A DNA stretch of 12,222 bases, from positions 6,958 to 19,179 of the forward strand of contig DHYP01000007.1 of the NCBI GenBank assembly GCA_002414145.1, given 5' to 3'. The translations under genes and the position numbers were made by a program. The DNA is from Methylophilaceae bacterium UBA5127. GTDB lineage: Bacteria > Pseudomonadota > Gammaproteobacteria > Burkholderiales > Methylophilaceae. Position 1 is the stretch's first letter, and the number at the start of each line of letters is the position of its first letter. This document shows, one piece after another, positions 920 to 12,222 of this stretch. The notes under the pieces were generated by a model. That model was not told the origin of the DNA. It made no database searches and worked only from the letters and a program-made list of their open reading frames with translations.

Positions 920-1072
920 ATGCAGGATTCTATCATTAATGCAGAAAATACGTTTGTAATTCAATCAACATCACCGCTTATTCCCCTTAATTTACCGATT
1001 GTCGGAAGAGACTGGACATTGCATCCTGATCTTTGGCATGCTTCAATCAAGCAAAAAGGGGATGGAAAATGA
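920..1072 (+). CDS. Doubtful 50-residue ORF overlapping the start of the pilin operon
   Basis: An ATG-started ORF of 50 codons (begins [12 protein letters not shown], ends KQKGDGK) whose TGA overlaps the ATG of the following pilin gene as ATGA. That overlap would allow translational coupling. I recognise no family. It has no signal peptide, no membrane segment and no cysteine, and it contains a moderately hydrophobic [10 protein letters not shown] stretch followed by a Trp/His-containing segment. Against it: no Shine-Dalgarno is evident before its ATG, it occupies the only intergenic region where both divergent promoters should lie, and a minus-strand -10 candidate sits inside it. It could be a true leader gene, a decayed gene, or chance. 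I list it mainly so that the stretch is described; the other reading is that 891-1068 is simply the divergent promoter region. Confidence 0.25.
927..932 (-). promoter_or_regulatory. Possible -10 element for lptM-lysA
   Basis: On the minus strand the sequence TAGAAT lies 37 bases before the lptM ATG, a good match to the sigma-70 -10 hexamer. The hexamer 17 bases further upstream (AAACGT) is a poor -35, so the assignment is tentative. This is the only promoter-like sequence I could find for the leftward pair. It lies inside the doubtful plus-strand ORF at 920-1072. Confidence 0.35.
1056..1062 (+). promoter_or_regulatory. Ribosome binding site fixing the pilin start
   Basis: AAGGGGA lies six bases before the ATG at 1069-1071 and is a good Shine-Dalgarno. 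It selects this ATG over the in-frame TTG at 1033, which would add 12 residues ([12 protein letters not shown]) to a prepilin leader that is already a normal 10 residues. Confidence 0.8.
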
Positions 1073-1494
1073 ATGTGCGAAAAATAAATCAGAAGGGGTT
1101 TACGCTTCTTGAGCTAATGATAGTCGTAGCGATTGTTGGCATTTTGGCATCAATTGCGATTCCAGCATACCAAGACTATGTGAAAAAGGGCAAGGCGGCA
1201 GAGGCCCCCGGAGCGTTAGCAGATCTACGCGTAAAGATGGAACAATGTTTTCAGGATAATCGCGATTACACCGCATGTGCTGCTTTTTGTGCGCCTACTT
1301 CAGGCGCAGTAAATTTTGCCTATAAGTGTACTGATCAAACAGCAACTACATATAAAATTGAAGCGACTGGTGACTCTGCAAAAGGCATGTCTGGTTTTTC
1401 ATATACTGTCGATCAGGATAATGCCAAGACGTCCTCATATGATGGTGGCACTACAGTTAACTGCTGGGTAACTTCTAAAAGCGGTTCGTGCTGA
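1069..1494 (+). CDS. pilE: Type IV pilin, PilE-type (minor pilin)
   Basis: A 141-residue prepilin. The positively charged leader [10 protein letters not shown] is cleaved by the prepilin peptidase after Gly10; the mature protein starts [10 protein letters not shown] with Glu at mature position 5, followed by the hydrophobic N-terminal helix and the conserved AIPAYQDYV turn. The globular domain has six cysteines (residues 60, 70, 74, 87, 132, 141), three closely spaced and the last at the extreme C terminus, consistent with disulfide-stapled loops including a C-terminal D-region. It heads the operon in front of fimT, pilV, pilW, pilX and pilY1, so it is more likely the PilE minor pilin that joins the core minor pilins to the major pilin than the major subunit itself. 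The major-pilin alternative cannot be excluded from sequence. Its TGA overlaps the fimT ATG by one base. Confidence 0.9.
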
Positions 1495-2063
1495 TGTTAT
1501 CGCTTAATCGCAAATTATCAGGTTTTACGCTGGTAGAGCTACTGATTGTACTAACAATATTTAGTGTATTAGCAGCTTTTGCTTTACCCAGCTATAGACA
1601 AATGATAGAGAATAATAAGATTAGATCTGCTGCTGAGTCTATACATAATGGCATTCAAATAGCGCGTGCAGAAGCTGTTAAACGTAATGTGCCAGTACAG
1701 TTTGATTTGCGCGGTACGCATTCTGCTTGGACAGTGTGTGTGAGTCCAGCAGTTGCTGGGGCATGCCCTAATCCAGATGATGCTGTTGCAACTGTTCAAA
1801 GTCGTAGCTTGGGCGAAGGTTCATCTTCCGATGTGAGTGTGGTGATTAGCGACGCCTCGCCGCTCGTGTTTAATAGTCTAGGCGTATTGACAAGTCCAGT
1901 TCCCACAGCAGCCAATGGTTTAGTTAGCCTTGATATAGATAACGCTGCATTATCTTCTTCGGATAGTCGTAATTTACGCGTAGTGATAGGGGCTGGCGGC
2001 AGTGTCAAAATGTGCGACCCAGCGCTGAATAGTGGCGGCACCGATCCGCGCAAATGTCCTTAA
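1494..2063 (+). CDS. fimT: Minor pilin / pseudopilin FimT-FimU (GspH family)
   Basis: A 189-residue prepilin with leader [10 protein letters not shown], cleavage before FTLVELLIVL, and Glu5 present. After the N-terminal helix comes the FimT/GspH signature IHNGIQIARAEAVKRN (about 50-65) and a GspH-type beta domain, with four cysteines at 82, 91, 174 and 188 in two likely pairs, the second near the C terminus (KMCDP...KCP). FimU/FimT is a core minor pilin of the type IVa priming complex in the inner membrane and at the pilus tip; FimT homologues in some species also bind DNA during transformation. I use the ATG at 1494, which overlaps the upstream TGA. A GTG at 1488 is in frame but would only add two residues. 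No own Shine-Dalgarno is seen, which suggests coupling to the pilin gene. Confidence 0.9.
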   Translation: MLSLNRKLSGFTLVELLIVLTIFSVLAAFALPSYRQMIENNKIRSAAESIHNGIQIARAEAVKRNVPVQFDLRGTHSAWTVCVSPAVAGACPNPDDAVATVQSRSLGEGSSSDVSVVISDASPLVFNSLGVLTSPVPTAANGLVSLDIDNAALSSSDSRNLRVVIGAGGSVKMCDPALNSGGTDPRKCP

Positions 2064-2085
2064 GATTGCATATTAGGAAAAAGAG

Positions 2086-2472
2086 ATGAATCGCTATCCT
2101 CCAACTTTACATAAATCGCAAAAAGGTGCATTTTTGCTAGAGGCATTAATTGCGGTCTTAATATTCTCATTGGGCATTCTTGCTTTGGCTGGTTTGCAGG
2201 CTGTGATGATAAAAAATACAGACGATGCAAAGTATCGTGCAGAAGCTACGTTTATCGCGCAACAAAAGTTAGGTGAAATTTGGACTAATGCACAAAATCT
2301 CGGTAGCTTAGCTGACTATGTGGTTGATGAGCCTGTCGAGCAATTGCCCAGTGGTAATCGAGTGGTGGCTGTTTCGCCAGAGAGTGTTGTGACAGTCACA
2401 GTTTCATGGAAATTACCAGGTGGAGATTCCCACACCTATTCTACAAATGCTAGGGTTGAGGGGATCTATTAA
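2086..2472 (+). CDS. pilV: Type IV pilus minor pilin PilV
   Basis: A 128-residue prepilin with a 14-residue leader ending SQKG and mature start AFLLEALIAVLIFSLG, keeping Glu5. The N-terminal helix is followed by the PilV-typical QKLGEIW segment (about 60-66), an LPSGNRVV motif (88-94) and a VTVTVSWKLPG strand (102-112). No cysteines are present. It is slightly shorter than many PilV proteins but appears complete. PilV is a core minor pilin that with FimU, PilW, PilX and PilY1 primes pilus assembly. A Shine-Dalgarno AGGA lies at 2075-2078, seven bases before the ATG. The gap from fimT is 22 bases, and the TAA overlaps the pilW ATG (TAATG). Confidence 0.92.
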   Translation: MNRYPPTLHKSQKGAFLLEALIAVLIFSLGILALAGLQAVMIKNTDDAKYRAEATFIAQQKLGEIWTNAQNLGSLADYVVDEPVEQLPSGNRVVAVSPESVVTVTVSWKLPGGDSHTYSTNARVEGIY

Positions 2473-3554
2473 TGATGCATAGATATAAAAATGCTTTGAT
2501 GAGCCAACGGGGTTTTAGTTTAGTTGAGCTAATGGTGGGATTGGTGATTGGTTTGTTAGCAACGCTAGTCATTGTGCAGGTTTTTTCCACTTTTGAAGAG
2601 CGTAAACGTACCACATCAGGAAACTCAGATGCGCAAACCAATGGCAGTATTGCGTTGATGAGTATTCAGCGCAGTATACAGATGGCGGGCTATGGTTTGC
2701 CTCTCCCTATGGCTGACAAAGATAATAGTTCATTGAAATGTGCAGCGTTTGCTGATTATGATCCAGATAACAATCCTGCTACTGATAATAGTATCAATTT
2801 ATCTCCCTTGGTGATTCTGGATGGCGCAGCGAATGCTAGTGATAGGATTACTGTTCGTTATAGTACAACAGCGATGGGGGCCGTGCCTACGTCAATAGTG
2901 AACGCTGCAAATGCTACGGCACCGATAGGCTTAGTGCTTTCAAATAACATTGGTTGTAAAGATAATGATATAGCGTTAATTATGAATGGAACCGTATGCA
3001 GGATGACAACAGTGGCGGATGCTAATGGTAATCCTAATACAGATCAAAACCTCAGATTAATTGGTACTACACCTGTTGGTAATCCTCTGATTAATGCTGC
3101 CAAATTAGCTTGTATGGGTAATTGGCAAAACTATACCTATCAAGTAGTAAATAATGAATTGAGATTGAATGGTCAGCCTATTATTTCTGAAGTAGTGAAT
3201 TTGCAGGCACAGTATGGCATTTCACCTTCTGCGGATAGTAACCAAGTCAATCAATGGGTGAATGCAGATGGTGCATGGGCAGCACCTAGTGTTGCTGACC
3301 GTAATCGTATCAAAGCAATCCGGGTTGCAATCGTGGTACGCAATGGTTTGTTAGAGAAAGCCGATGTCAGCACGGCCTGCAGTTCAATCACAGCAGCTAA
3401 CCCAACGGGTGTATGTGCGTGGGATGGCTCAGTATATGGTGATGCCCCTACAATCGATTTAACAGGTATTGCTAATTGGAAAAAATATCGTTATCGGGTT
3501 TTTGAAACCATTATCCCATTACGCAATATGCTTTGGTCTAAGGATGCAGTCTGA
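2472..3554 (+). CDS. pilW: Type IV pilus minor pilin PilW
   Basis: A 360-residue prepilin with leader ending SQRG (Gly14), mature start FSLVELMVGLVIGLLA, and Glu5 present. The following segment TTSGNSDAQTNGSIA...RSIQMAGYG (about 47-75) is characteristic of PilW, whose large beta-rich domain accounts for its length. Cysteines are scattered through the ectodomain and could form disulfides. PilW links PilX/PilY1 to the remaining minor pilins in the priming complex. GAGGGG at 2458-2463 favours the first of two tandem ATGs (2472 and 2475). The TGA overlaps the pilX ATG by one base. Confidence 0.93.
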   Translation: MMHRYKNALMSQRGFSLVELMVGLVIGLLATLVIVQVFSTFEERKRTTSGNSDAQTNGSIALMSIQRSIQMAGYGLPLPMADKDNSSLKCAAFADYDPDNNPATDNSINLSPLVILDGAANASDRITVRYSTTAMGAVPTSIVNAANATAPIGLVLSNNIGCKDNDIALIMNGTVCRMTTVADANGNPNTDQNLRLIGTTPVGNPLINAAKLACMGNWQNYTYQVVNNELRLNGQPIISEVVNLQAQYGISPSADSNQVNQWVNADGAWAAPSVADRNRIKAIRVAIVVRNGLLEKADVSTACSSITAANPTGVCAWDGSVYGDAPTIDLTGIANWKKYRYRVFETIIPLRNMLWSKDAV

Positions 3555-4171
3555 TGAACAATCCATATACAAGCTCATATAAACAACATGGTGTAGTGCT
3601 TTTTATTGCACTTGTTGCACTGGTCGTCATGTCTTTAGCCGCCGTGGCTTTGATTCGCTCAGTCGATACCAATACGATTATTGCGGGAAATTTATCAATG
3701 AAGCAATCAGCCGTTGTGTCATCAGATAGGGGTGCAGAAACAGCGATTGGCTGGATAAAAGCTACTGCAGTAGCAAATTTGAATGCATTAAACGCTGACA
3801 ATGTTGCCAATGGATATTTTGCAACCTTTAAGACGCTGGATTTAGACAATCGTGCAATATTAACCAATGTAGCAACTTGGAATGCCAATAGTGCGTTGGC
3901 GGCAGGCACGGGTATTTCAGCGGGTGTGGAAGATGATACGCGTAATGAGATACGTTACATCGTTCAGCGTATGTGTTTGGATCCTGTAGCACCTACCAAG
4001 GAAAAATGTCAATTTGGTTCTACTGAGGTTGGATCCGGAAGTAGAGGTGTAAAAGATGCTACTGAGGCAGGTGCGCTCATTCATGGAGCAGAAAGCCCAA
4101 TTTATCGAATAACTGTTAGGGTTGTTGGTCCTAAAAACACCGTTAGTTACACACAAACCTATGTATATTAG
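3554..4171 (+). CDS. pilX: Type IV pilus minor pilin PilX
   Basis: A 205-residue protein with leader ending KQHG (Gly13) and hydrophobic start VVLFIALVALVVMSLAAVAL, followed by IRSVDTNTIIAGNLSMKQ, matching the PilX N-terminal family. It lacks the Glu at mature position 5 (Ile instead), which is expected for this tip-proximal subunit and resembles GspK of type II secretion. Two cysteines (MCLDP and KCQFG) may pair in the ectodomain. The C terminus (PIYRITVRVVG...QTYVY) is a beta strand typical of the family. PilX is inferred to cap the minor pilin complex and contact PilY1, encoded nine bases downstream. Confidence 0.92.
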   Translation: MNNPYTSSYKQHGVVLFIALVALVVMSLAAVALIRSVDTNTIIAGNLSMKQSAVVSSDRGAETAIGWIKATAVANLNALNADNVANGYFATFKTLDLDNRAILTNVATWNANSALAAGTGISAGVEDDTRNEIRYIVQRMCLDPVAPTKEKCQFGSTEVGSGSRGVKDATEAGALIHGAESPIYRITVRVVGPKNTVSYTQTYVY

Positions 4172-4174
4172 GAG
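4170..4174 (+). promoter_or_regulatory. Ribosome binding site of pilY1 overlapping the pilX stop
   Basis: AGGAG lies six bases before the pilY1 ATG and shares two bases with the TAG of pilX. PilY1 therefore has its own strong initiation signal while remaining tied to upstream translation. Confidence 0.75.
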
Positions 4175-4180
4175 TCATTC

Positions 4181-7100
4181 ATGAAACACAGTCACAATAA
4201 TTATGTAAGGCTAATGGGTTATATGTCGGGGCTGTTTTTGCTATTGAGCATAGCATTACCATTTTCAGCACAGGCTACCCCCTTAGATTTGGCGACAGTT
4301 CCTTTAGCAAATAGCCCTACTATTACGATTCGAGCTAATTTACTGTTTATATTCGATGACTCTGGTAGTATGGCAGACGACTCTATGCCAGATGTGAGTA
4401 ACTCTACTACACCTTATCTGTTTAGAAATGCCAGTTACAATACTATTTACTACAATCCAGCTGTGCGTTATTTACCTCCAGCTTACTTTACTGCATCTGG
4501 AATAAATACCACCACGTATCCAAGCCAAACAGGGGATGCCACTGCTAGTGGCGCGAGTTCAGCAGCCAAGCCAAACTGGAAGGTTGTAAAAAAGGATGCA
4601 TATGGTAAGGTTGCTACTGGCACAACTGATTTAACAGCGGACGCATTTTATTTCACCACAATCCCTGGTGAGTTTTGTAAAAATGCGGATCTAAAAGTCT
4701 GTAATGCACAGACTGCGGCAAATGCTACCTATCCTTTCCCCGCCCCAGTACGGTGGTGTACTACTACTGGCAATGCTACTGCCGCCGTCCCAGCTGCTAA
4801 CACTTGCCAGGCCAGCAATTTTGGATCATTTACAAATTTACGTATCCCAGGTCCACGTGTTGCAACGGTTGCTTTTACTAATGGTGGCGGAACAAACCGT
4901 AAAGTTTCTGGTATTACCATCAGTGGTTCACAAATTATGTCTGGCACTACTGCGACTAATACAAACAGTTCAACTACCATGGCGCAAGAAACCGTCACCA
5001 TGATTAATAACTGTACCTTTAGTCAAGTGGGGAGTTGTACTGTAGCTGGTTATAGCGCAACCTCTTCAGGGGGTACGGTTACGATCTATGCGCCCGCTGG
5101 GTCAACCACTACTGTCACGCCAGCTGCAACTACTTCACCTACGGGTTATGTTTCTAGCACATCAGCATTTGCAAAGATCAATCCTAATGTACCTGGTCAA
5201 ACAGTTTTTACGGCAATCAATAACTCGGCAGCAACATATGGATACCCAGGTACGGCCAGTAAAGTTGTGGCTACACGTTCAGATTGTGCAGGCAGTACTT
5301 GTACCTACACAGAGGAAATGACTAATTACGCAAACTGGTATACTTACTATCGTACGCGTGCACAGATGATGAAAACAGCGACGAGTCTTGCCTTTAAAGA
5401 TATCGGCGATGATTTTAAAGTAGGGTTTATGACAACATCCGGAGCATCAGGTCGTGCAAGCAATTTTGCTAGTTTTACCACTGCCAACAAAGCGCAATGG
5501 TATACAAAATTATTTAGCACAGTATCAGATACCTACACCCCATTACGTGGAGCTTTGTCAACAGCTGGGCTCATATATGCAAGTAAAACAAACCTTAATG
5601 GTGTATTTACTGACCCGATTGAATATGAATGCCAGCAAAACTTTACTTTATTGACTACAGATGGCTTTTGGAATACTCAGATTGAAACACCACGTACTCA
5701 AACAGCACCAGCAAATGTACCCGCAACCTATGGACCATTCAATCTTACGGGTGGCAATGTCGGTAATATGGATAGCTTAGCAAAAGAAACACCATTAGGG
5801 ATGCGTGAAGGTACGCCCGCTGTATCAGATACGTTAGCGGACGTGGCTAAGTATTATCGCGATACTGACTTGCGTACAGCAGCATTAGGCAATTGTAATG
5901 GTGCTTTAGGCTCTAACGTCTGTGAAACTCCCGTAACGAGCGGAAGTCCTCTTAACGAAAAGCAGACCATGGTGACCATGACCATGGGCTTAGGCGCGGA
6001 TGGCACGCTTGCCTATATCCCACATTACGATACTGTGCCTGGGGATTATTTGGATATTAAGGCAGGAACCAAAAGCTGGTCTAATCCAATTGCCAATGGT
6101 GGCGCTGAGCGTATTGATGATTTGTGGCATGCAGCTGTGAATGGTGCGGGTACTTATTTCAGTGCTAAAAGCCCTACGGACGTTGTGAATCAACTTAAAG
6201 AAGCCATTGCTTCGATTAAGGTAAAAGTGGGTACGGGTGCGGCGGCGGCAACCAGTACACTTAACCCTGTGACGGGAGATAATTATGCCTATGTTGCCAG
6301 CTATACCTCAGGATATTGGATAGGCAATCTAGAAAGACGCACAGTGAATACCACATCTGGTGAAGTGAGTAAGTCTGCTACACATTGTGTTGAAGATGTA
6401 GTACCTACTGCTGGTTGCGCCTCGCCCGCTAGTATTGTGGCGGATGGTTCAGGGGGCTATAACTGCGTGACACCTAACGTGACAACTGCATCTGCTTGTG
6501 TTGGAACGTTAGAGGGTACAGACTGTAAAGTGCCTGTCAGTGTGAGTTGTACAGGTACGTTAAAAACTAAGGTTTCTGCGTTTACTGATACTAGAACAAT
6601 ATTGATAAATGCAGGTGGTAGTTTACAGAGCTTTAGTTCTGCAAGTCTGACTTCAGCACAAAAAGTGTACTTGGATAAGCCGTGGTTGGCAGCCAATTTG
6701 ACACAATGGCCGTCACTCACGACTAACCAACAAAACAATGCGACGGTAGATAATCTAGTGAGTTATTTGCGTGGACAAACTGGTTATGATATGGCTTCAT
6801 CAGTTGCCGACAATCGGGTTTTCCGTAAGCGTCAGGCTACCTTAGGAGATTTGATTAACTCAAAACCTGCTTTTATTGGTAAGCCAGTCTTTAACTACAC
6901 TGACCCAGGCTACGATGCATATAAAACAGCCCAAGTAGGTCGTGCCAAAACAGTCTATGTGGGCTCTAACGATGGTATGTTGCATGCATTTGATGCGGAT
7001 ACAATGGTAGAACGTTGGGCCTATATACCAAGCATGGTCATCCCTAATTTATGGAAATTGGCAGATAGCAACTATAGTGCTAAACATTCATATTATGCCG

Positions 7101-8329
7101 ATGGTGATATTGTGATTTCTGATATTTGTTACTCTGGCTGCAATAGCACGGGTGCAACTTGGAAAACCATTCTGGTCGCAGGTTTGAATGGAGGTGGTCG
7201 CGGATACTATGCGTTAGATATTACAAATCCAACTTCTCCATCATTGCTTTGGGAGTTTGATGCAAAAAACTCTGGTTCAAAAGCTGATCAAAACTTAGGT
7301 TATACCTATGGTAACCCCGTTGTCACCAAGCGAAATATCGATGATAGGTGGGTCGTATTATTTACTTCTGGTTACAATAATGTTCCAGATAATGATAGTT
7401 TTTATTCTTTAACTACCACCAAATTTAAACCAAATAATCCGGCCATGTACACAAATGGTGATGGTAGAGGCTATCTGTACGTAGTGGATGCTGTAACAGG
7501 TGATAAGTTAGCAGCTATTTCTACTACAGAGTCTACAACGCCTAGTGGTTTAGCTAAAATTAAAGCTTACGCCGAGGATGCCGAGAAAAATAATGCCACA
7601 ACGCATGTTTATGGTGGCGATTTACTTGGAAATTTATGGCGCTTCAATATTGATGACAATACTGTGCTTAAATTTGCTAAGTTACAAGCGAATGGTATTG
7701 CGCAACCGATTACTACATCGCCTGAGTTGGGACTTGTTGATAATAAAAAAGTGATTATTGCAGGTACTGGGAAATATTTGGAAGTTGCTGATCTGACCAA
7801 TTCGGATCAACAAACGTTATATGCAATTAAAGATGATAGTGCAACTGCAACTTTAAATAACCCTCGCGCTACGTTGGTTCAGCAGACTATTGTGCCAGAT
7901 GGTGCAGATACGCGTAAGAGCGGAACTAATAATGGGGTGAACTTTACTACTGGTAATGGGTGGTATGTGGATTTCCCAGATCCGCGCGAACGTCAGAATA
8001 TCTCATCACGCTTAGTTTTAGGCACTTTGCTTCTGCCCACGACTGTACCTACCTCTACAGCTTGTCAGCCAGCTGGATATGGTTGGTTTAACTATCTTGA
8101 TTATAGAACTGGTTTGGCAGTAAAAACCACGCCATCATCTAACGTTGTTTCGCAACGTACAACTGCACCAAGCGTGGGTTTTAATGTGGTCTATATTGAT
8201 GGAAAACCAAAGGTTTCTAATGTAGTCGCTGATAATCCTAACCCAGTATTGTTACCAGATATTCCATTTGCAGGATCTGGTACTGGATTCCAAGTGAAAC
8301 GATCAATTTGGCGAGAAATTACTGAGTAG
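4181..8329 (+). CDS. pilY1: Type IV pilus tip adhesin/assembly protein PilY1 (PilC family)
   Basis: A 1382-residue exported protein. A Sec signal peptide (hydrophobic GLFLLLSIALPFSA, cleavage after SAQA at about residue 32) is followed by a von Willebrand factor A domain whose metal-ion site is visible as DDSGSM (D59, S61, S63), T453 in TPLRGAL and D494 in TTDGFWN. Between the first and second parts of this site is a long Ser/Thr/Ala-rich insertion. Residues about 880-1380 form the Neisseria PilC-type beta-propeller: ATLGDLINSKP, YVGSNDGMLHAFDADT (about 925-940), the NGGGRGYYALDI strand and YGGDLLGNLWRFN (from about 1144). The C terminus KRSIWREITE is family-typical. PilY1 is known as the tip-located adhesin, mechanosensor and Ca2+-dependent regulator of pilus retraction. 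It needs the five upstream minor pilins for assembly. It is longer than the P. aeruginosa protein, mainly through the vWA insertion. A terminator follows 12 bases after the stop. Confidence 0.95.
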   Translation: MKHSHNNYVRLMGYMSGLFLLLSIALPFSAQATPLDLATVPLANSPTITIRANLLFIFDDSGSMADDSMPDVSNSTTPYLFRNASYNTIYYNPAVRYLPPAYFTASGINTTTYPSQTGDATASGASSAAKPNWKVVKKDAYGKVATGTTDLTADAFYFTTIPGEFCKNADLKVCNAQTAANATYPFPAPVRWCTTTGNATAAVPAANTCQASNFGSFTNLRIPGPRVATVAFTNGGGTNRKVSGITISGSQIMSGTTATNTNSSTTMAQETVTMINNCTFSQVGSCTVAGYSATSSGGTVTIYAPAGSTTTVTPAATTSPTGYVSSTSAFAKINPNVPGQTVFTAINNSAATYGYPGTASKVVATRSDCAGSTCTYTEEMTNYANWYTYYRTRAQMMKTATSLAFKDIGDDFKVGFMTTSGASGRASNFASFTTANKAQWYTKLFSTVSDTYTPLRGALSTAGLIYASKTNLNGVFTDPIEYECQQNFTLLTTDGFWNTQIETPRTQTAPANVPATYGPFNLTGGNVGNMDSLAKETPLGMREGTPAVSDTLADVAKYYRDTDLRTAALGNCNGALGSNVCETPVTSGSPLNEKQTMVTMTMGLGADGTLAYIPHYDTVPGDYLDIKAGTKSWSNPIANGGAERIDDLWHAAVNGAGTYFSAKSPTDVVNQLKEAIASIKVKVGTGAAAATSTLNPVTGDNYAYVASYTSGYWIGNLERRTVNTTSGEVSKSATHCVEDVVPTAGCASPASIVADGSGGYNCVTPNVTTASACVGTLEGTDCKVPVSVSCTGTLKTKVSAFTDTRTILINAGGSLQSFSSASLTSAQKVYLDKPWLAANLTQWPSLTTNQQNNATVDNLVSYLRGQTGYDMASSVADNRVFRKRQATLGDLINSKPAFIGKPVFNYTDPGYDAYKTAQVGRAKTVYVGSNDGMLHAFDADTMVERWAYIPSMVIPNLWKLADSNYSAKHSYYADGDIVISDICYSGCNSTGATWKTILVAGLNGGGRGYYALDITNPTSPSLLWEFDAKNSGSKADQNLGYTYGNPVVTKRNIDDRWVVLFTSGYNNVPDNDSFYSLTTTKFKPNNPAMYTNGDGRGYLYVVDAVTGDKLAAISTTESTTPSGLAKIKAYAEDAEKNNATTHVYGGDLLGNLWRFNIDDNTVLKFAKLQANGIAQPITTSPELGLVDNKKVIIAGTGKYLEVADLTNSDQQTLYAIKDDSATATLNNPRATLVQQTIVPDGADTRKSGTNNGVNFTTGNGWYVDFPDPRERQNISSRLVLGTLLLPTTVPTSTACQPAGYGWFNYLDYRTGLAVKTTPSSNVVSQRTTAPSVGFNVVYIDGKPKVSNVVADNPNPVLLPDIPFAGSGTGFQVKRSIWREITE

Positions 8330-8341
8330 AGTTGACTATTT

Positions 8342-8367
8342 AAAGAGCGGGATTTCCCGCTCTTTTT
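8342..8367. terminator. Rho-independent terminator shared by the convergent operons
   Basis: AAAGAGCGGG (8342-8351) and CCCGCTCTTT (8356-8365) form a perfect 10-bp stem with an ATTT loop, followed by a T-rich run on the plus strand. It lies 12 bases after the pilY1 stop and 9 bases after the stop of the convergent gene. On the minus strand the stem ends in TTT then AAATAG, a weaker U-tract, so it is probably strong for the pil operon and partial for the gsh operon. Confidence 0.92.
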
Positions 8368-8376
8368 ATTTAGTGG

Positions 8377-8883
8377 TTAATCTTTGTTGAGTAGTCTAGA
8401 CGTAATTAATCCGTTCACAAAACCAAAAAACAAAGCAGCCAACGCAAAAATTGGGATAAAGTACGCCATACTCGCATGCGGGATTAGCCACAGTCTGACG
8501 ATAATGAGTTGTCCCGCAATATGTGCTAAGGCAGCTAGTATACTTAAGCTAATCGCGCTAAAGTATTTTTGAGGTAGCTTGTTGGCAAAGCTTAATATGA
8601 TTAAGCTCAGACAGGCTCCGCCGAGACTCAAGAGAAAGCTGGGTGACAGGAATTGTCCTAATAGCAAGCTGCTGGCGAACACACGCAGTAAGCTTACCCA
8701 TGCTGCCGTTTTAATACCATAACGATAGAGTACATATAAGGTCACAATGTTAGCAATACCAGGTTTAACCCCTGGTAGTGGCGATGGGAATGCAGATTCA
8801 ACTAGATGCAGACCAATGGCAAAAGCCGTGAGCTTGGCGATTTTATGATCTTCTTCAGTGGTTTGGATGGTGATTTGCTTCAT
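8377..8883 (-). CDS. Gx transporter family membrane protein (PF07456, EetB-like)
   Basis: A 168-residue integral membrane protein. After a polar N terminus there are about five hydrophobic segments, beginning near residue 18. The family motif ESAFPSPLPGVKPGIANIV spans 29-47, RVFASSLLLGQFLSP is at 67-81, SLGGACLS at 86-93, and an HIAGQ motif at 121-125. The family is often annotated 'heptaprenyl diphosphate synthase component I', but no prenyltransferase aspartate-rich motif is present, and I would not assign that enzyme activity. The ATG directly abuts the TAA of the preceding NusG-domain gene, so the two are surely co-translated. The same pair next to an ApbE gene occurs in the flavin-based extracellular electron transfer loci of Firmicutes (eetA, eetB), where their exact biochemistry is unresolved. 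A role as a membrane partner in an extracytoplasmic redox system is inference. Confidence 0.85.
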   Translation of the reverse strand: MKQITIQTTEEDHKIAKLTAFAIGLHLVESAFPSPLPGVKPGIANIVTLYVLYRYGIKTAAWVSLLRVFASSLLLGQFLSPSFLLSLGGACLSLIILSFANKLPQKYFSAISLSILAALAHIAGQLIIVRLWLIPHASMAYFIPIFALAALFFGFVNGLITSRLLNKD

Positions 8884-9282
8884 TTAATAGTTCAGAGTGT
8901 CAAATTGTGTTTTTTCGCCAATCAATTCCAGACTAATTTGATTAGGTAAGCATATGGCAGCCTGCCCAGCATGGTGAAGCCAACCCTGATGTACGCAGTA
9001 TTGGTTGTTGCAAGGCGATTGCTTAAAGCGTACTTTGCCTTGCTGAATTTCAATGAGGGTTGTGCCCACCTTTCCCTGAATCGTCAACGCTTTATTTTGT
9101 TTTAGACTGTATTCACCATAGACTTGATTGCCAAGACGAATGCGCAACCTAGTCGCGTCTTCGCTAACCCAGAGTGATTTGAATAGCCAGATAATGAGGA
9201 GCATGCTGACAACAATGATGATCCAGTCACCCAGAAGTGGTTTAGGAAAGTGATTGAAGGATTTGAAGGTGTGTTTTAGCAT
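8884..9282 (-). CDS. Membrane-anchored NusG domain II protein (EetA-like)
   Basis: A 132-residue protein with a cytoplasmic N terminus, one transmembrane helix (DWIIIVVSMLLIIWLF, about 19-34) and an extracytoplasmic NusG-domain-II fold. The signature is KQSPCNNQYCVHQG (88-100) followed by AAICLPNQISLEL (108-120), giving three conserved cysteines at 91, 96 and 111. This C-x4-C...C-LPN pattern identifies the family; it has nothing to do with transcription factor NusG beyond the fold name. The cysteines suggest a redox or metal/cofactor role outside the membrane, but this is inference. The gene starts inside apbE, overlapping its last 41 bases. There is no alternative ATG, GTG or TTG before the membrane helix, so the overlap is probably real. 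Its stop touches the start of the Gx-family gene. Confidence 0.88.
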   Translation of the reverse strand: MLKHTFKSFNHFPKPLLGDWIIIVVSMLLIIWLFKSLWVSEDATRLRIRLGNQVYGEYSLKQNKALTIQGKVGTTLIEIQQGKVRFKQSPCNNQYCVHQGWLHHAGQAAICLPNQISLELIGEKTQFDTLNY

Positions 9283-10288
9283 CTGGCTCTAGCCATTCTA
9301 TGCGTTTTAACATAGAGGGGGTAATGAGTATATCGCCATTCTCTTGAATAATCATGACATCTTTTACGTTCATGCGTTTAATGGCTTCTTGCTTTTTATT
9401 GGGTTCGCTAATGAAAATGGGTTTAGAGGTGACATCAGAAAGTACGCCAGCATTGGCTTGCGGCGGGATGAGTACAGTAACCGATTGCGTGCCTTGTGCG
9501 GGTATGCCTGTACGTGGATCGATAATATGACAGTATCGTTTACCATCCAGCATAAAGTATCGTTGATAATCGCCAGAAGTACCAATGGCCCAACCACTTT
9601 CCAGATTGAGTGCCGCAATGGCATTAGGTTTGCGTGGATGTTGTATACCTACGCGCCATGGGTGTTCGCCATGCTTGCCAAGCGCAATCACATTGCCGCC
9701 GATGTTGATGAGTGCATTTTTAACGCCTTGATTTTTTAGCATGGTCATGCCTACATCCAAAGCGTAGCCCTTTGCATAACCGCCTAAATCCAGCTGCACA
9801 TGACGGTTTTTGCTGGTGATATGATTGTCTTCTATGATTAAATCAGTCATTTGTGGGTTGGCTTTGACTAACGTAGCAATCTTTTTTGTATCTATACTTA
9901 AGGCATGAAACTCATCATTTTGAAAGCCCCATGTTTGGATTAACTCTCCTATGGCTGGGTTAAATAAGCCGCCAGATTGCACGGAATATTGAGTGGACTG
10001 TTTTAGCATGTCTGCAATGTCTGGTGCAACGCGGGCGCTATTGCCTTGCGCTATCTGATGATTGATGCCATTGAGTTCACTGGGCTTCCAGGCATGCAGG
10101 CGATTATGCAGATTTTGAAACTCACGCAAGATGGTGGCGGTGATGTTTTGTCCTTCTGCATCGGTTTCACCATAGGTGCTGATGTCGACCAGCGTGCCGA
10201 AAACATAGCTTTGATTATGGTAAAGCGGCTCTTTGAGGCTACAGCTGAGTAAGCTGATGCAGCAAATGCAGGCAAAAAAATAACGCAT
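9242..10288 (-). CDS. apbE: FAD:protein FMN transferase, lipoprotein (ApbE family)
   Basis: A 348-residue enzyme that transfers FMN from FAD to Ser/Thr of extracytoplasmic proteins (known for RnfG, NqrC and FMN-binding-domain proteins). The N terminus MRYFFACICCISLLSC is a lipoprotein signal with lipidated Cys16, placing it in the periplasm on a membrane. Family motifs in order: FGTLVDISTYG (30-40), LGGYAKGYALD (168-178), NIGGN (195-199), IGTSGDYQRYF (235-245), HIIDPRTG (254-261) and SDVTSKPIF (284-292). The last motif usually reads like ADALATALF; here the Asp (285) is kept, but the position four residues later, normally a Thr thought to help bind Mg2+, is Lys289. The gene starts six bases after the gshB stop and overlaps the next gene by 41 bases. 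No FMN-binding-domain substrate is encoded in the window. Confidence 0.95.
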   Translation of the reverse strand: MRYFFACICCISLLSCSLKEPLYHNQSYVFGTLVDISTYGETDAEGQNITATILREFQNLHNRLHAWKPSELNGINHQIAQGNSARVAPDIADMLKQSTQYSVQSGGLFNPAIGELIQTWGFQNDEFHALSIDTKKIATLVKANPQMTDLIIEDNHITSKNRHVQLDLGGYAKGYALDVGMTMLKNQGVKNALINIGGNVIALGKHGEHPWRVGIQHPRKPNAIAALNLESGWAIGTSGDYQRYFMLDGKRYCHIIDPRTGIPAQGTQSVTVLIPPQANAGVLSDVTSKPIFISEPNKKQEAIKRMNVKDVMIIQENGDILITPSMLKRIEWLEPDAKTHLQILQSLS

Positions 10289-10294
10289 ACAGGA

Positions 10295-11230
10295 TTAGTG
10301 GGTCGCCTCTAAAGCATCCATGAGTACTTGTGCTGGATTGCATGAGGTTTGCGCTGCAATTTCTACCATGCCAGTGGGGCTGGTCACATTCACTTCAGTG
10401 AGGTAGTCACCAATCACATCTAGACCCACCAAGAACAAGCCTTCTGCTTTGAGTGCTGTGCCTACGGTGTCGGCAATTTCTAAGTCGCGCTCTGTGAGTA
10501 CTTGCGCTAGCCCTTTACCTCCTGCGGCAAGATTTCCTCTTGTTTCACCTGCTTTTGGGATACGGGCAAGCGCATAAGGCAATGGCTTGCCGTTGATGAT
10601 AATGATCCGTTTGTCACCATGTGCGATAGCAGGCAAGTAGCGCTGCGCCATCACAGTTTGTTGCTCTAGTTTGGTAATCGTTTCCAAAATGGCACCAATG
10701 TTAGGGTCGTGTTGCGTCAGCCTGAATACTCCACTACCGCCCATACCGTCCAATGGTTTAACAATGATGTCCTCTTGTTCGGCTAAAAATTCACGAATGA
10801 GCGCATTGTTCGCTGTCACAATAAAGTAAGGAGCTAATTGAGGAAATTTTGCTACAGACAGTTTCTCGTTCCAATTTCTGATGGCAACTGGATTGTTAAT
10901 GATGCGTCCGCCCTGCGTTTGCGCGAGCTCTAGTAGATAGGTGCTATAAAGATATTCGTTATCAAAAGGAGGATCCTTACGCATAAAAATAGCTTCAAAG
11001 TCTTGAGGGAGATGCTGTTGCTTGGGCTGTACTGAATACCAAGCTTCCTCCGTTGAAAAACAGAAACTCTGTGCATCAACATAAACAACCCCTTGCTTTA
11101 ATCTTAAGTCATGCTGCTCACATACAAACAATTGATGCCCGCGTGCCTGCGCCTCACGCATGATGGCCAAGCTAGTGTCCTTGTAGGCTTTCAGGTGTGT
11201 GAGCGGGTCTAAAATAAAGAGCAGTTTCAT
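10295..11230 (-). CDS. gshB: Glutathione synthetase
   Basis: A 311-residue ATP-grasp ligase that joins gamma-glutamylcysteine and glycine to make glutathione in the cytoplasm. It shows the full proteobacterial GshB pattern: MKLLFILDPL at the start, MRKDPPFDNEY (83-93), NNPVAIRNWNEKL (112-124), the glycine-rich ATP loop KPLDGMGGSGVFR (158-170), GDKRI (205-209), GETRGNLAAGG (228-238) and the metal-binding TEVNVTSPTG (278-287). Length is normal for the family. An open frame extends upstream to 11428, but it runs through gshA and adds non-homologous sequence; the ATG at 11228-11230 puts the conserved N terminus at residue 1 and lies 19 bases after the gshA stop. The Shine-Dalgarno is weak, consistent with coupling. 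It is the second gene of the leftward operon. Confidence 0.97.
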   Translation of the reverse strand: MKLLFILDPLTHLKAYKDTSLAIMREAQARGHQLFVCEQHDLRLKQGVVYVDAQSFCFSTEEAWYSVQPKQQHLPQDFEAIFMRKDPPFDNEYLYSTYLLELAQTQGGRIINNPVAIRNWNEKLSVAKFPQLAPYFIVTANNALIREFLAEQEDIIVKPLDGMGGSGVFRLTQHDPNIGAILETITKLEQQTVMAQRYLPAIAHGDKRIIIINGKPLPYALARIPKAGETRGNLAAGGKGLAQVLTERDLEIADTVGTALKAEGLFLVGLDVIGDYLTEVNVTSPTGMVEIAAQTSCNPAQVLMDALEATH

Positions 11231-11249
11231 TGATTTTAGCTGGTTTAGT

Positions 11250-12222
11250 TTATGGTTTATTGAGTGGATCGTTTTCTTGCAACTCAATTGCTGCGGCAAG
11301 TAGTGCCAGACGTGCGACAACACCATAGGCGTAGAATCTGTTTGGTGGCGCATCAGGTGCGCCCGCACAGTCTGGTAAAGTGCAAGGCTTCTCAAAAGCC
11401 AGCGGCACAAAATGCATGCCTGGCGCATTCAGGTTTTCATCAGCGGCACGACCTGTGTGTACACGATAAAAACCACCAATCACAAAATGATCCATCATAT
11501 AAACTACAGGCTCAGCGACGGCATCGTTAATGCTTTCAAAGGTATATACACCCTCTTGAATGATGACCTCTGAGACTTGCAGTCCTTCTTTGACGACAGA
11601 CATTTTGTTGCGTGTTTTACGATTCAGATCACGTACATCGTCAGGAGATTTCACTGTCATGATGCCCATACCATAAGTGCCAGCATCCGCCTTAACGATG
11701 ACAAAAGGTTCTTGTGTAATGCCGTATTGAGCATACTTTATTTGTATCTTTGCGAGCAGTTGCGCTACTTTTTCTGCCAGACAATCTTCCCCTGTACGGG
11801 CATGGAAATCAATTTCACCACATGTATCAAAATAGGGGTTAAGCAACCAGTCATCTATTTCTAAAAGTTGTGAAAATTCATCAACTACATGGTTATAGGC
11901 AGCAAAATGCTGGGATTTACGTCGAGTTGACCAGCCTGCATGCAGTGGGGGAATGAGATTCTGCTCTAAGTTTTTTAGAATGTCAGGTATGCCAGCGGAT
12001 AAGTCGTTATTAAGTAAAATTGCGCGACTATCAAAGGCTGGATACGTTACACCCTCTAATTCCGATGCTTTGAGCTGCACCCGATTTTTTTCACGTACAA
12101 CGGGTTCTAAAATAAGGTGATGGCCATCATGAGTTTCTAATCGGGTAATGCTGGTAATTTCTGGAGAAATACTGCCGATACGCACATCTAGACCAGCCGC
12201 TTTCAGTATGTTACATAGCTCA
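11250..12222 (-). CDS. gshA: Glutamate-cysteine ligase, GshA proteobacterial type (PF08886), 5' end outside window
   Basis: This enzyme catalyses the first, rate-limiting step of glutathione synthesis, ATP-dependent joining of glutamate to cysteine. About 323 C-terminal codons are visible. The frame stays open to the right edge (ELCNILKAAGLDVRIGS), so the GTG near 12185 is internal and not the start. The sequence resembles the GshA family typified by acidithiobacilli and betaproteobacteria rather than the E. coli GshA fold. Recognisable segments are RKSQHFAAYNHVVDEF (about 11872-11919), the glycine-rich FVIVKADAGTYGMGIM (about 11660-11708), YMMDHFVIGGFYRVHTG (about 11450-11500) and the C terminus ENDPLNKP. 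It is directly followed by gshB, giving a complete two-step glutathione pathway in one operon. Confidence 0.93.
   Translation of the reverse strand, partial: ELCNILKAAGLDVRIGSISPEITSITRLETHDGHHLILEPVVREKNRVQLKASELEGVTYPAFDSRAILLNNDLSAGIPDILKNLEQNLIPPLHAGWSTRRKSQHFAAYNHVVDEFSQLLEIDDWLLNPYFDTCGEIDFHARTGEDCLAEKVAQLLAKIQIKYAQYGITQEPFVIVKADAGTYGMGIMTVKSPDDVRDLNRKTRNKMSVVKEGLQVSEVIIQEGVYTFESINDAVAEPVVYMMDHFVIGGFYRVHTGRAADENLNAPGMHFVPLAFEKPCTLPDCAGAPDAPPNRFYAYGVVARLALLAAAIELQENDPLNKP

Follow-up and report, generated by a model that had tools for sequence, protein, structure and literature searches.

The window analysed here, a 12,222-nucleotide stretch of Methylophilaceae bacterium UBA5127 (contig DHYP01000007.1, positions 6,958 to 19,179), carries an apbE-eetA-eetB trio behind gshB. 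We consider it probable that this trio is a module for flavin adenine dinucleotide (FAD) delivery and flavinylation that acts with an unlinked partner resembling the T subunit of energy-coupling factor (ECF) transporters and serves chiefly Rnf; it is likely a split-locus Gram-negative FAD exporter. EetB is already known as a FAD exporter, and the new finding is that an unlinked ECF-T-like protein tracks EetB. The genes and motifs concerned are as follows.

9242..10288, minus strand: apbE, lipoprotein-type FAD:protein FMN (flavin mononucleotide) transferase, 348 amino acids (PF02424, E 3.6e-71, over cut-off)
10241..10243, minus strand: codon of the probable lipobox residue Cys16 of ApbE (LLSC; read from the translation, codon checked)
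8884..9282, minus strand: eetA-like gene, 132 amino acids, one N-terminal hydrophobic segment (judged by eye) and a NusG domain II (PF07009, E 5.4e-28, over cut-off)
8950..9012, minus strand: stretch with the three EetA cysteine codons (residues 91, 96 and 111; codons checked)
8377..8883, minus strand: eetB-like gene, 168 amino acids, six-helix PF07456 membrane protein with S-component fold (E 2.9e-41)
8824..8838, minus strand: A-x-x-x-A in helix 1, eetB codons 16-20 (position checked)

The source genome (2.42 Mb, 82.7% complete, partly masked) had a single PF02361 match at E≤0.001, a protein of 207 residues encoded between fimV and truA on contig C20 (L011:7250-7873), and the idea of a genome without a T subunit was dropped. 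The protein showed a T-subunit fold (EcfT-like) and matched the PF02361 family profile, and some database sources name such proteins EcfT or CbiQ family. It is called T-like here because two Ala-Arg-Gly/Ser signatures, through which T subunits contact their ATPases, were not established. Co-occurrence was counted in 150 genomes of the order and in 276 genomes of the class (GTDB Gammaproteobacteria, including the former Betaproteobacteria). The class listing overlaps the order sample only in G000, G048 and G090 and leaves 177 genomes without a match unlisted; an unlisted genome was read as absent, and counts are of raw genomes, with kinship ignored. A strong RnfC_N match was one at E<1e-15, a cut chosen after the lists had been seen, and weaker ones were counted as negative; at E≤0.001, RnfC_N was matched in 61/150 genomes of the order and 189/276 of the class, where matches between the two cuts reached E values as low as 2.5e-14.

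PF02361 alone was a weak test of co-occurrence, with matches in 21/48 genomes with PF07456 versus 18/102 without, and it was replaced by a family profile because it takes in canonical T subunits as well and overlooks those that have diverged. The order profile came from alignment A1, 12 PF02361 matches of the 150 genomes with fimV, truA or trpF adjoining, one of them from an EetB-negative genome; its cut of E<1e-15 dropped G063 and G090. With this profile the T-like protein was found in 48/150 genomes, namely in 47/48 PF07456 genomes and in G035. The G035 gene (L077) also lies at fimV-truA, in a genome with neither a PF07456 nor an RnfC_N match, and may be a remnant or have another partner. 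For the class a separate alignment was used (A4, 56 of 120 database proteins listed), and no weak T-like or EetB match was removed, so that G348, G090, G232 and G172 are counted. The T-like protein was present in 79/276 genomes, 75 of them shared with the 79 EetB genomes (44 families), that is, in 75/79 genomes with EetB versus 4/197 without. Two of the four genomes with the T-like protein only had weak matches (G090, G232) and the other two (G376, G422) have EetB-positive congeners; one of the four with EetB only was weak (G348). Among the 156 class genomes with strong Rnf, the T-like protein was found in 67/69 with EetB and in 3/87 without, and it therefore follows EetB and not Rnf.

Within families of the order, EetB, Rnf and the T-like protein were present or absent together in f1 (G000/G146 versus G024/G071/G113), f5 (G004/G053/G131 versus G096), f26 (G026/G147 versus G072/G114) and f37 (G081 versus G037/G120), with sub-threshold RnfC_N matches in G072, G037 and G120. 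In f31, G031 had all three, G117 none, and G075 EetB and Rnf with no T-like match; in f39, G083 had all three and G039 Rnf only. The loci of T-like matches held fimV in 57/60 and truA in 45/60 cases (own locus counted twice). If EetB were instead a solitary S-component, like BtuM and some BioY, the T-like protein would be a coincidental co-resident. Solitary S-components are known, such as BtuM of T. denitrificans (PMC6072759, in excerpt), and the T-like gene is unlinked, sharing a stretch with eetB in only one of the best 80 related loci (L179, 1891-5653, where eetA-eetB-ubiX lies about 1 kb from truA-T-like-fimV on one contig). Against this stand the class counts of 75/79 and 4/197, the joint presence and absence inside single families and the conserved A-x-x-x-A motif, and we regard a solitary EetB as improbable.

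The identity of the trio was clear. An earlier note on this DNA, made from the letters alone, had described three tightly packed genes, and these were found as described, with all three Pfam families over cut-off. The PF02424 match of ApbE reached 240 bits versus a cut-off of 25.6 (profile 1-258 of 266), and the PF07456 match of EetB 141 bits versus 30 over the full profile. Judged by its sequence, ApbE is a member of the FMN transferase family, with transfer to client proteins predicted; Cys16 was tentatively assigned from the translation by the lipobox rule. The spacings were also as claimed: 6 bases from gshB (end 10295) to apbE, a 41-base overlap of apbE and eetA, and 0 bases between eetA and eetB.

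Neighbourhoods were counted in the best 80 related loci, some of them short stretches in which a missing neighbour says little. apbE and eetB occurred together in 49/80, and 47 of the 49 loci also contained gshB; the order of the trio is therefore not due to chance. The argument of the earlier note that the genes are expressed together was upheld. The closest named relatives among the loci listed were Methylotenera and other Methylophilaceae, and in Methylophilaceae the trio is a conserved block behind gshB; one such trio belongs to Methylotenera mobilis strain 13 (locus L113). In 28/80 loci the pair stood beside rapZ in place of apbE, with no apbE in the fetched stretch of any of the 28; apbE and rapZ were both present in 0/80 and both missing in 3/80. 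eetA was identified in 78/80 loci, and in all 29 EetB loci L012-L040. What stays constant across the loci seems to be the eetA-eetB pair, which apbE often accompanies. In the loci where the pair follows rapZ (28 loci, L144-L179), ubiX, which we take to encode a flavin prenyltransferase, lay nearby in 25. A gene of about 200 amino acids after eetB elsewhere was considered as a T subunit and dropped; in the loci displayed it encodes a presumably UbiX-like or another protein.

EetB had been read as a five-helix protein, and the model of the window protein showed six helices in an S-component fold, nearest to the flavin-binding RibU among S-components. A sequence search of EetB against the PDB gave no matches, and fold comparison was therefore used. 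The strict A/A of A-x-x-x-A was kept in 43/44 rows of the EetB alignment, window protein included; this motif docks ECF-S subunits on the T subunit (PMC11109136 and PMC3246461, in excerpt). EetB of Listeria has been published as a FAD-binding protein that serves, within a FAD exporter of ECF type, as the substrate subunit and so feeds the ApbE-like FmnB (PMC9973259, in excerpt). FAD binding and outward transport are known to us for the Listeria protein only; by analogy, FAD would be the cargo of EetB here and its direction would be outward. The Pfam name of PF07456 and some source names speak for a role in prenyl diphosphate synthesis, which is very unlikely in view of the S-component fold, the apbE neighbour, the co-occurrence with Rnf and the FAD binding of Listeria EetB (PMC9973259, in excerpt).

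In the order, PF07456 was found in 48/150 genomes and strong RnfC in 49/150; all 48 PF07456 genomes had strong RnfC, and 101/102 genomes without PF07456 were also without it, the sole mismatch being G039. The link was looser in the class, where strong RnfC was found in 69/79 EetB genomes and EetB was absent from 87/156 strong-RnfC genomes. The E. coli control had an RnfC_N match and no PF07456 match.

The earlier note had seen no FMN-binding substrate and no RNF genes. This held for the window, and there was no FMN_bind match on the trio contig C53, but the genome has two FMN_bind proteins (E≤0.001), on contig C52 (with rnf) and on contig C30, and an rnf operon on another contig than the trio. 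RnfA, RnfC and RnfD were identified by Pfam matches, and the other rnf genes, RnfG included, were assigned from order and sequence, with some letters masked. FMN-site-like stretches were found in RnfD (VTSATP) and RnfG (AGAT) under a motif rule that we presume to apply, and no apbE was found in the rnf stretch examined. Covalent FMN on RnfD and RnfG is attached by ApbE (PMC12052999, in excerpt), and we infer that Rnf is the main client of the trio. Contig C30 (L006:6831-9574) holds a second flavinylation cluster, in which a second apbE is joined by genes for a DUF6662 protein, an FMN_bind protein with SGAT and a small membrane-like protein without a Pfam match.

These results bear on the proposal of the earlier note that the trio is a self-contained redox system, based on flavin or thiols, outside the cytoplasm. 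On that reading the EetA cysteines and a flavinylated partner would carry electrons across the membrane. Cys96 and Cys111 of EetA were invariant in 14/14 aligned rows of the order, as such a role would have it. However, no FMN_bind match falls in the trio and the genome's FMN_bind proteins are encoded at other places, the EetB fold is that of a substrate carrier, and the pair lacks apbE in the fetched stretch of 28/80 loci. The idea of a stand-alone cassette was given up once rnf and two FMN_bind proteins had turned up in the genome; EetB is, moreover, a published FAD-exporting ECF-S subunit (PMC9973259, in excerpt), and we hold the proposal to be quite unlikely. It had named rnf genes that account for ApbE, with the NusG-II/Gx pair an unrelated passenger, as the contrary outcome; rnf was indeed present, but the pair hardly seems an unrelated passenger, since PF07456 was found in 48/49 strong-RnfC genomes of the order and 0/101 others. 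The three-cysteine NusG-II domain stood for Cys96 and Cys111 but not for residue 91, which was Cys in just 2/14 rows.

C-x4-C-V was retained in 117/120 of the closest database relatives of EetA. A conserved C-terminal tail, Y/F-D-S/T-L/I-x-Y, was seen in 14/14 rows (FDTLNY at window 8887-8904) and is a possible contact site. In the mechanism we propose, EetB would bind cytosolic FAD and move it to the periplasmic face, most likely docked on the ECF-T-like protein of fimV-truA on contig C20. The lipoprotein ApbE would split the FAD and attach FMN to proteins of the periplasm or the membrane, with RnfG and RnfD as the chief targets. EetA might be an accessory of EetB with its NusG-II domain extracytoplasmic, its two invariant cysteines perhaps forming a disulfide or a binding site; its role is a guess.

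The linker of the T-like protein measured 37-49 residues in 54/56 rows. This linker, which lies where ATPases dock, is short in the betaproteobacterial forms; the gammaproteobacterial ones keep a longer cytoplasmic linker. Two copies of strict ARG/ARS were found in 0/56 rows and one copy in 1/56, with none in 12/12 A1 rows and none in 16/16 gammaproteobacterial rows; as a control, the sample's 14 other PF02361 proteins were checked, of which 6 had at least one and 2 had two. Ordinary PF02361 proteins of the order (L041-L056) were often without strict Ala-Arg-Gly, and L046, L049 and L050 had IKG and LKG. In view of this control, the missing motif was dropped as proof of lost ATPase coupling. 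ECF ATPases were scanned with the TIGR04520 model, with 15 candidates scored per genome. Its cut-off of 315 bits was passed in 0/150 genomes, the best score in the source genome being 172.6 bits, and no match at E≤1e-45 was found in 10/48 EetB genomes. No clear ECF ATPase was found by this one model, which also left the ATPases beside canonical EcfT (G108, G128) under cut-off, at only 213.5-221.9 bits.

The T-like protein may still couple to a shared ABC ATPase, perhaps by altered contacts, as in an ordinary ATP-driven ECF transporter. This reading overlaps the one we prefer, and we would put it just short of an even chance. Listeria phenotypes point to EcfA/EcfA' in FAD export (PMC9973259, in excerpt), the gammaproteobacterial linkers are longer, the strict motif occurs in just 6/14 other PF02361 proteins so that its lack proves little, and even ATPases beside canonical EcfT score low. 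It is opposed by the near absence of strict ARG/ARS from the 56 rows, by the linker of 37-49 residues and by the 10/48 EetB genomes without an ATPase match. We doubt, and offer only tentatively, that EetB and the fimV-truA T-like protein form a two-membrane-protein FAD exporter of many Gammaproteobacteria that has lost ATPase coupling and has evolved to supply Rnf. Such an ECF-derived pair would, in this rather unlikely case, use another force, or equilibration with trapping through ApbE.

Other features lie around the trio. One is a weak candidate terminator.

8342..8365, found on the plus strand only in the scan: terminator-like hairpin between the convergent pilY1 and eetB, with a 10-pair stem and a T tail

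Its use on the minus strand for eetB is our own weak reading; the scan gave 3 matches in the region versus 4.3 in shuffles, which is weak statistically. The gshB open reading frame (10295-11428) is listed with an early start, as the glutathione synthase match starts at residue 67, and the true start is probably downstream of the listed one. Window positions 1033-8329 hold what we take to be pilin-like genes, whose products have type IV prepilin N-termini, and after them a presumably PilY1-like gene.

A flavin exporter of some Gram-negatives, which we take to be that named Bfe and YeeO and to belong to another protein family, is alike in bringing flavin to the periplasm. That exporter is set apart as not tied to apbE (PMC9973259, in excerpt). 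The tie to the Firmicutes eetA/eetB/fmnB genes, named in the earlier note, was upheld. The exporter of Listeria monocytogenes, EetB-FmnA-EcfA-EcfA' with FmnB (PMC9973259, in excerpt), shares the PF07456 S-component, the eetA neighbour, the ApbE-type enzyme and a T-type subunit. In contrast, the present system is Gram-negative, and its T-like gene lies apart, at fimV-truA, and encodes a protein with a short linker. The TIGR04520 scan brought up no clear ECF ATPase, and the client is apparently Rnf, with no FMN_bind gene beside the trio. Unlike in the Firmicutes extracellular electron transfer locus, the FMN_bind client is not beside the trio, and the genome's own hits are on C52 and C30. EetB goes with Rnf also in Clostridia, where rnf clusters with eetB (572 genomes; PMC9973259, in excerpt); the link there is one of gene neighbourhood, whereas here it rests on co-occurrence counted over whole genomes, rnf and the trio being on separate contigs. 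Solitary BtuM and BioY (PMC6072759 and PMC11109136, in excerpt) are likewise S-components in Gram-negatives without a recognised full ECF module, but they are importers reported to work without the module, whereas in the present case the S-component goes together with a T-like protein and the direction proposed is export. Among the open-access papers listed, none was seen to connect EetB with the fimV-truA T-like protein or with betaproteobacterial Rnf, although the supplement of PMC9973259 may list such genomes; a term search of PMC8238504 and PMC11334425 gave no match.

With these findings, what had been an uncharacterised redox cassette becomes a hypothesis on transport that can be put to the test. 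To our knowledge, the delivery of FAD to the periplasm for covalent flavinylation in Gram-negatives is poorly understood. If the hypothesis is true, Rnf maturation in many Gammaproteobacteria would depend on EetB and on a partner named only EcfT/CbiQ in some sources, and the system would serve as a natural experiment on whether the usual ATPases are dispensable to an ECF pair.
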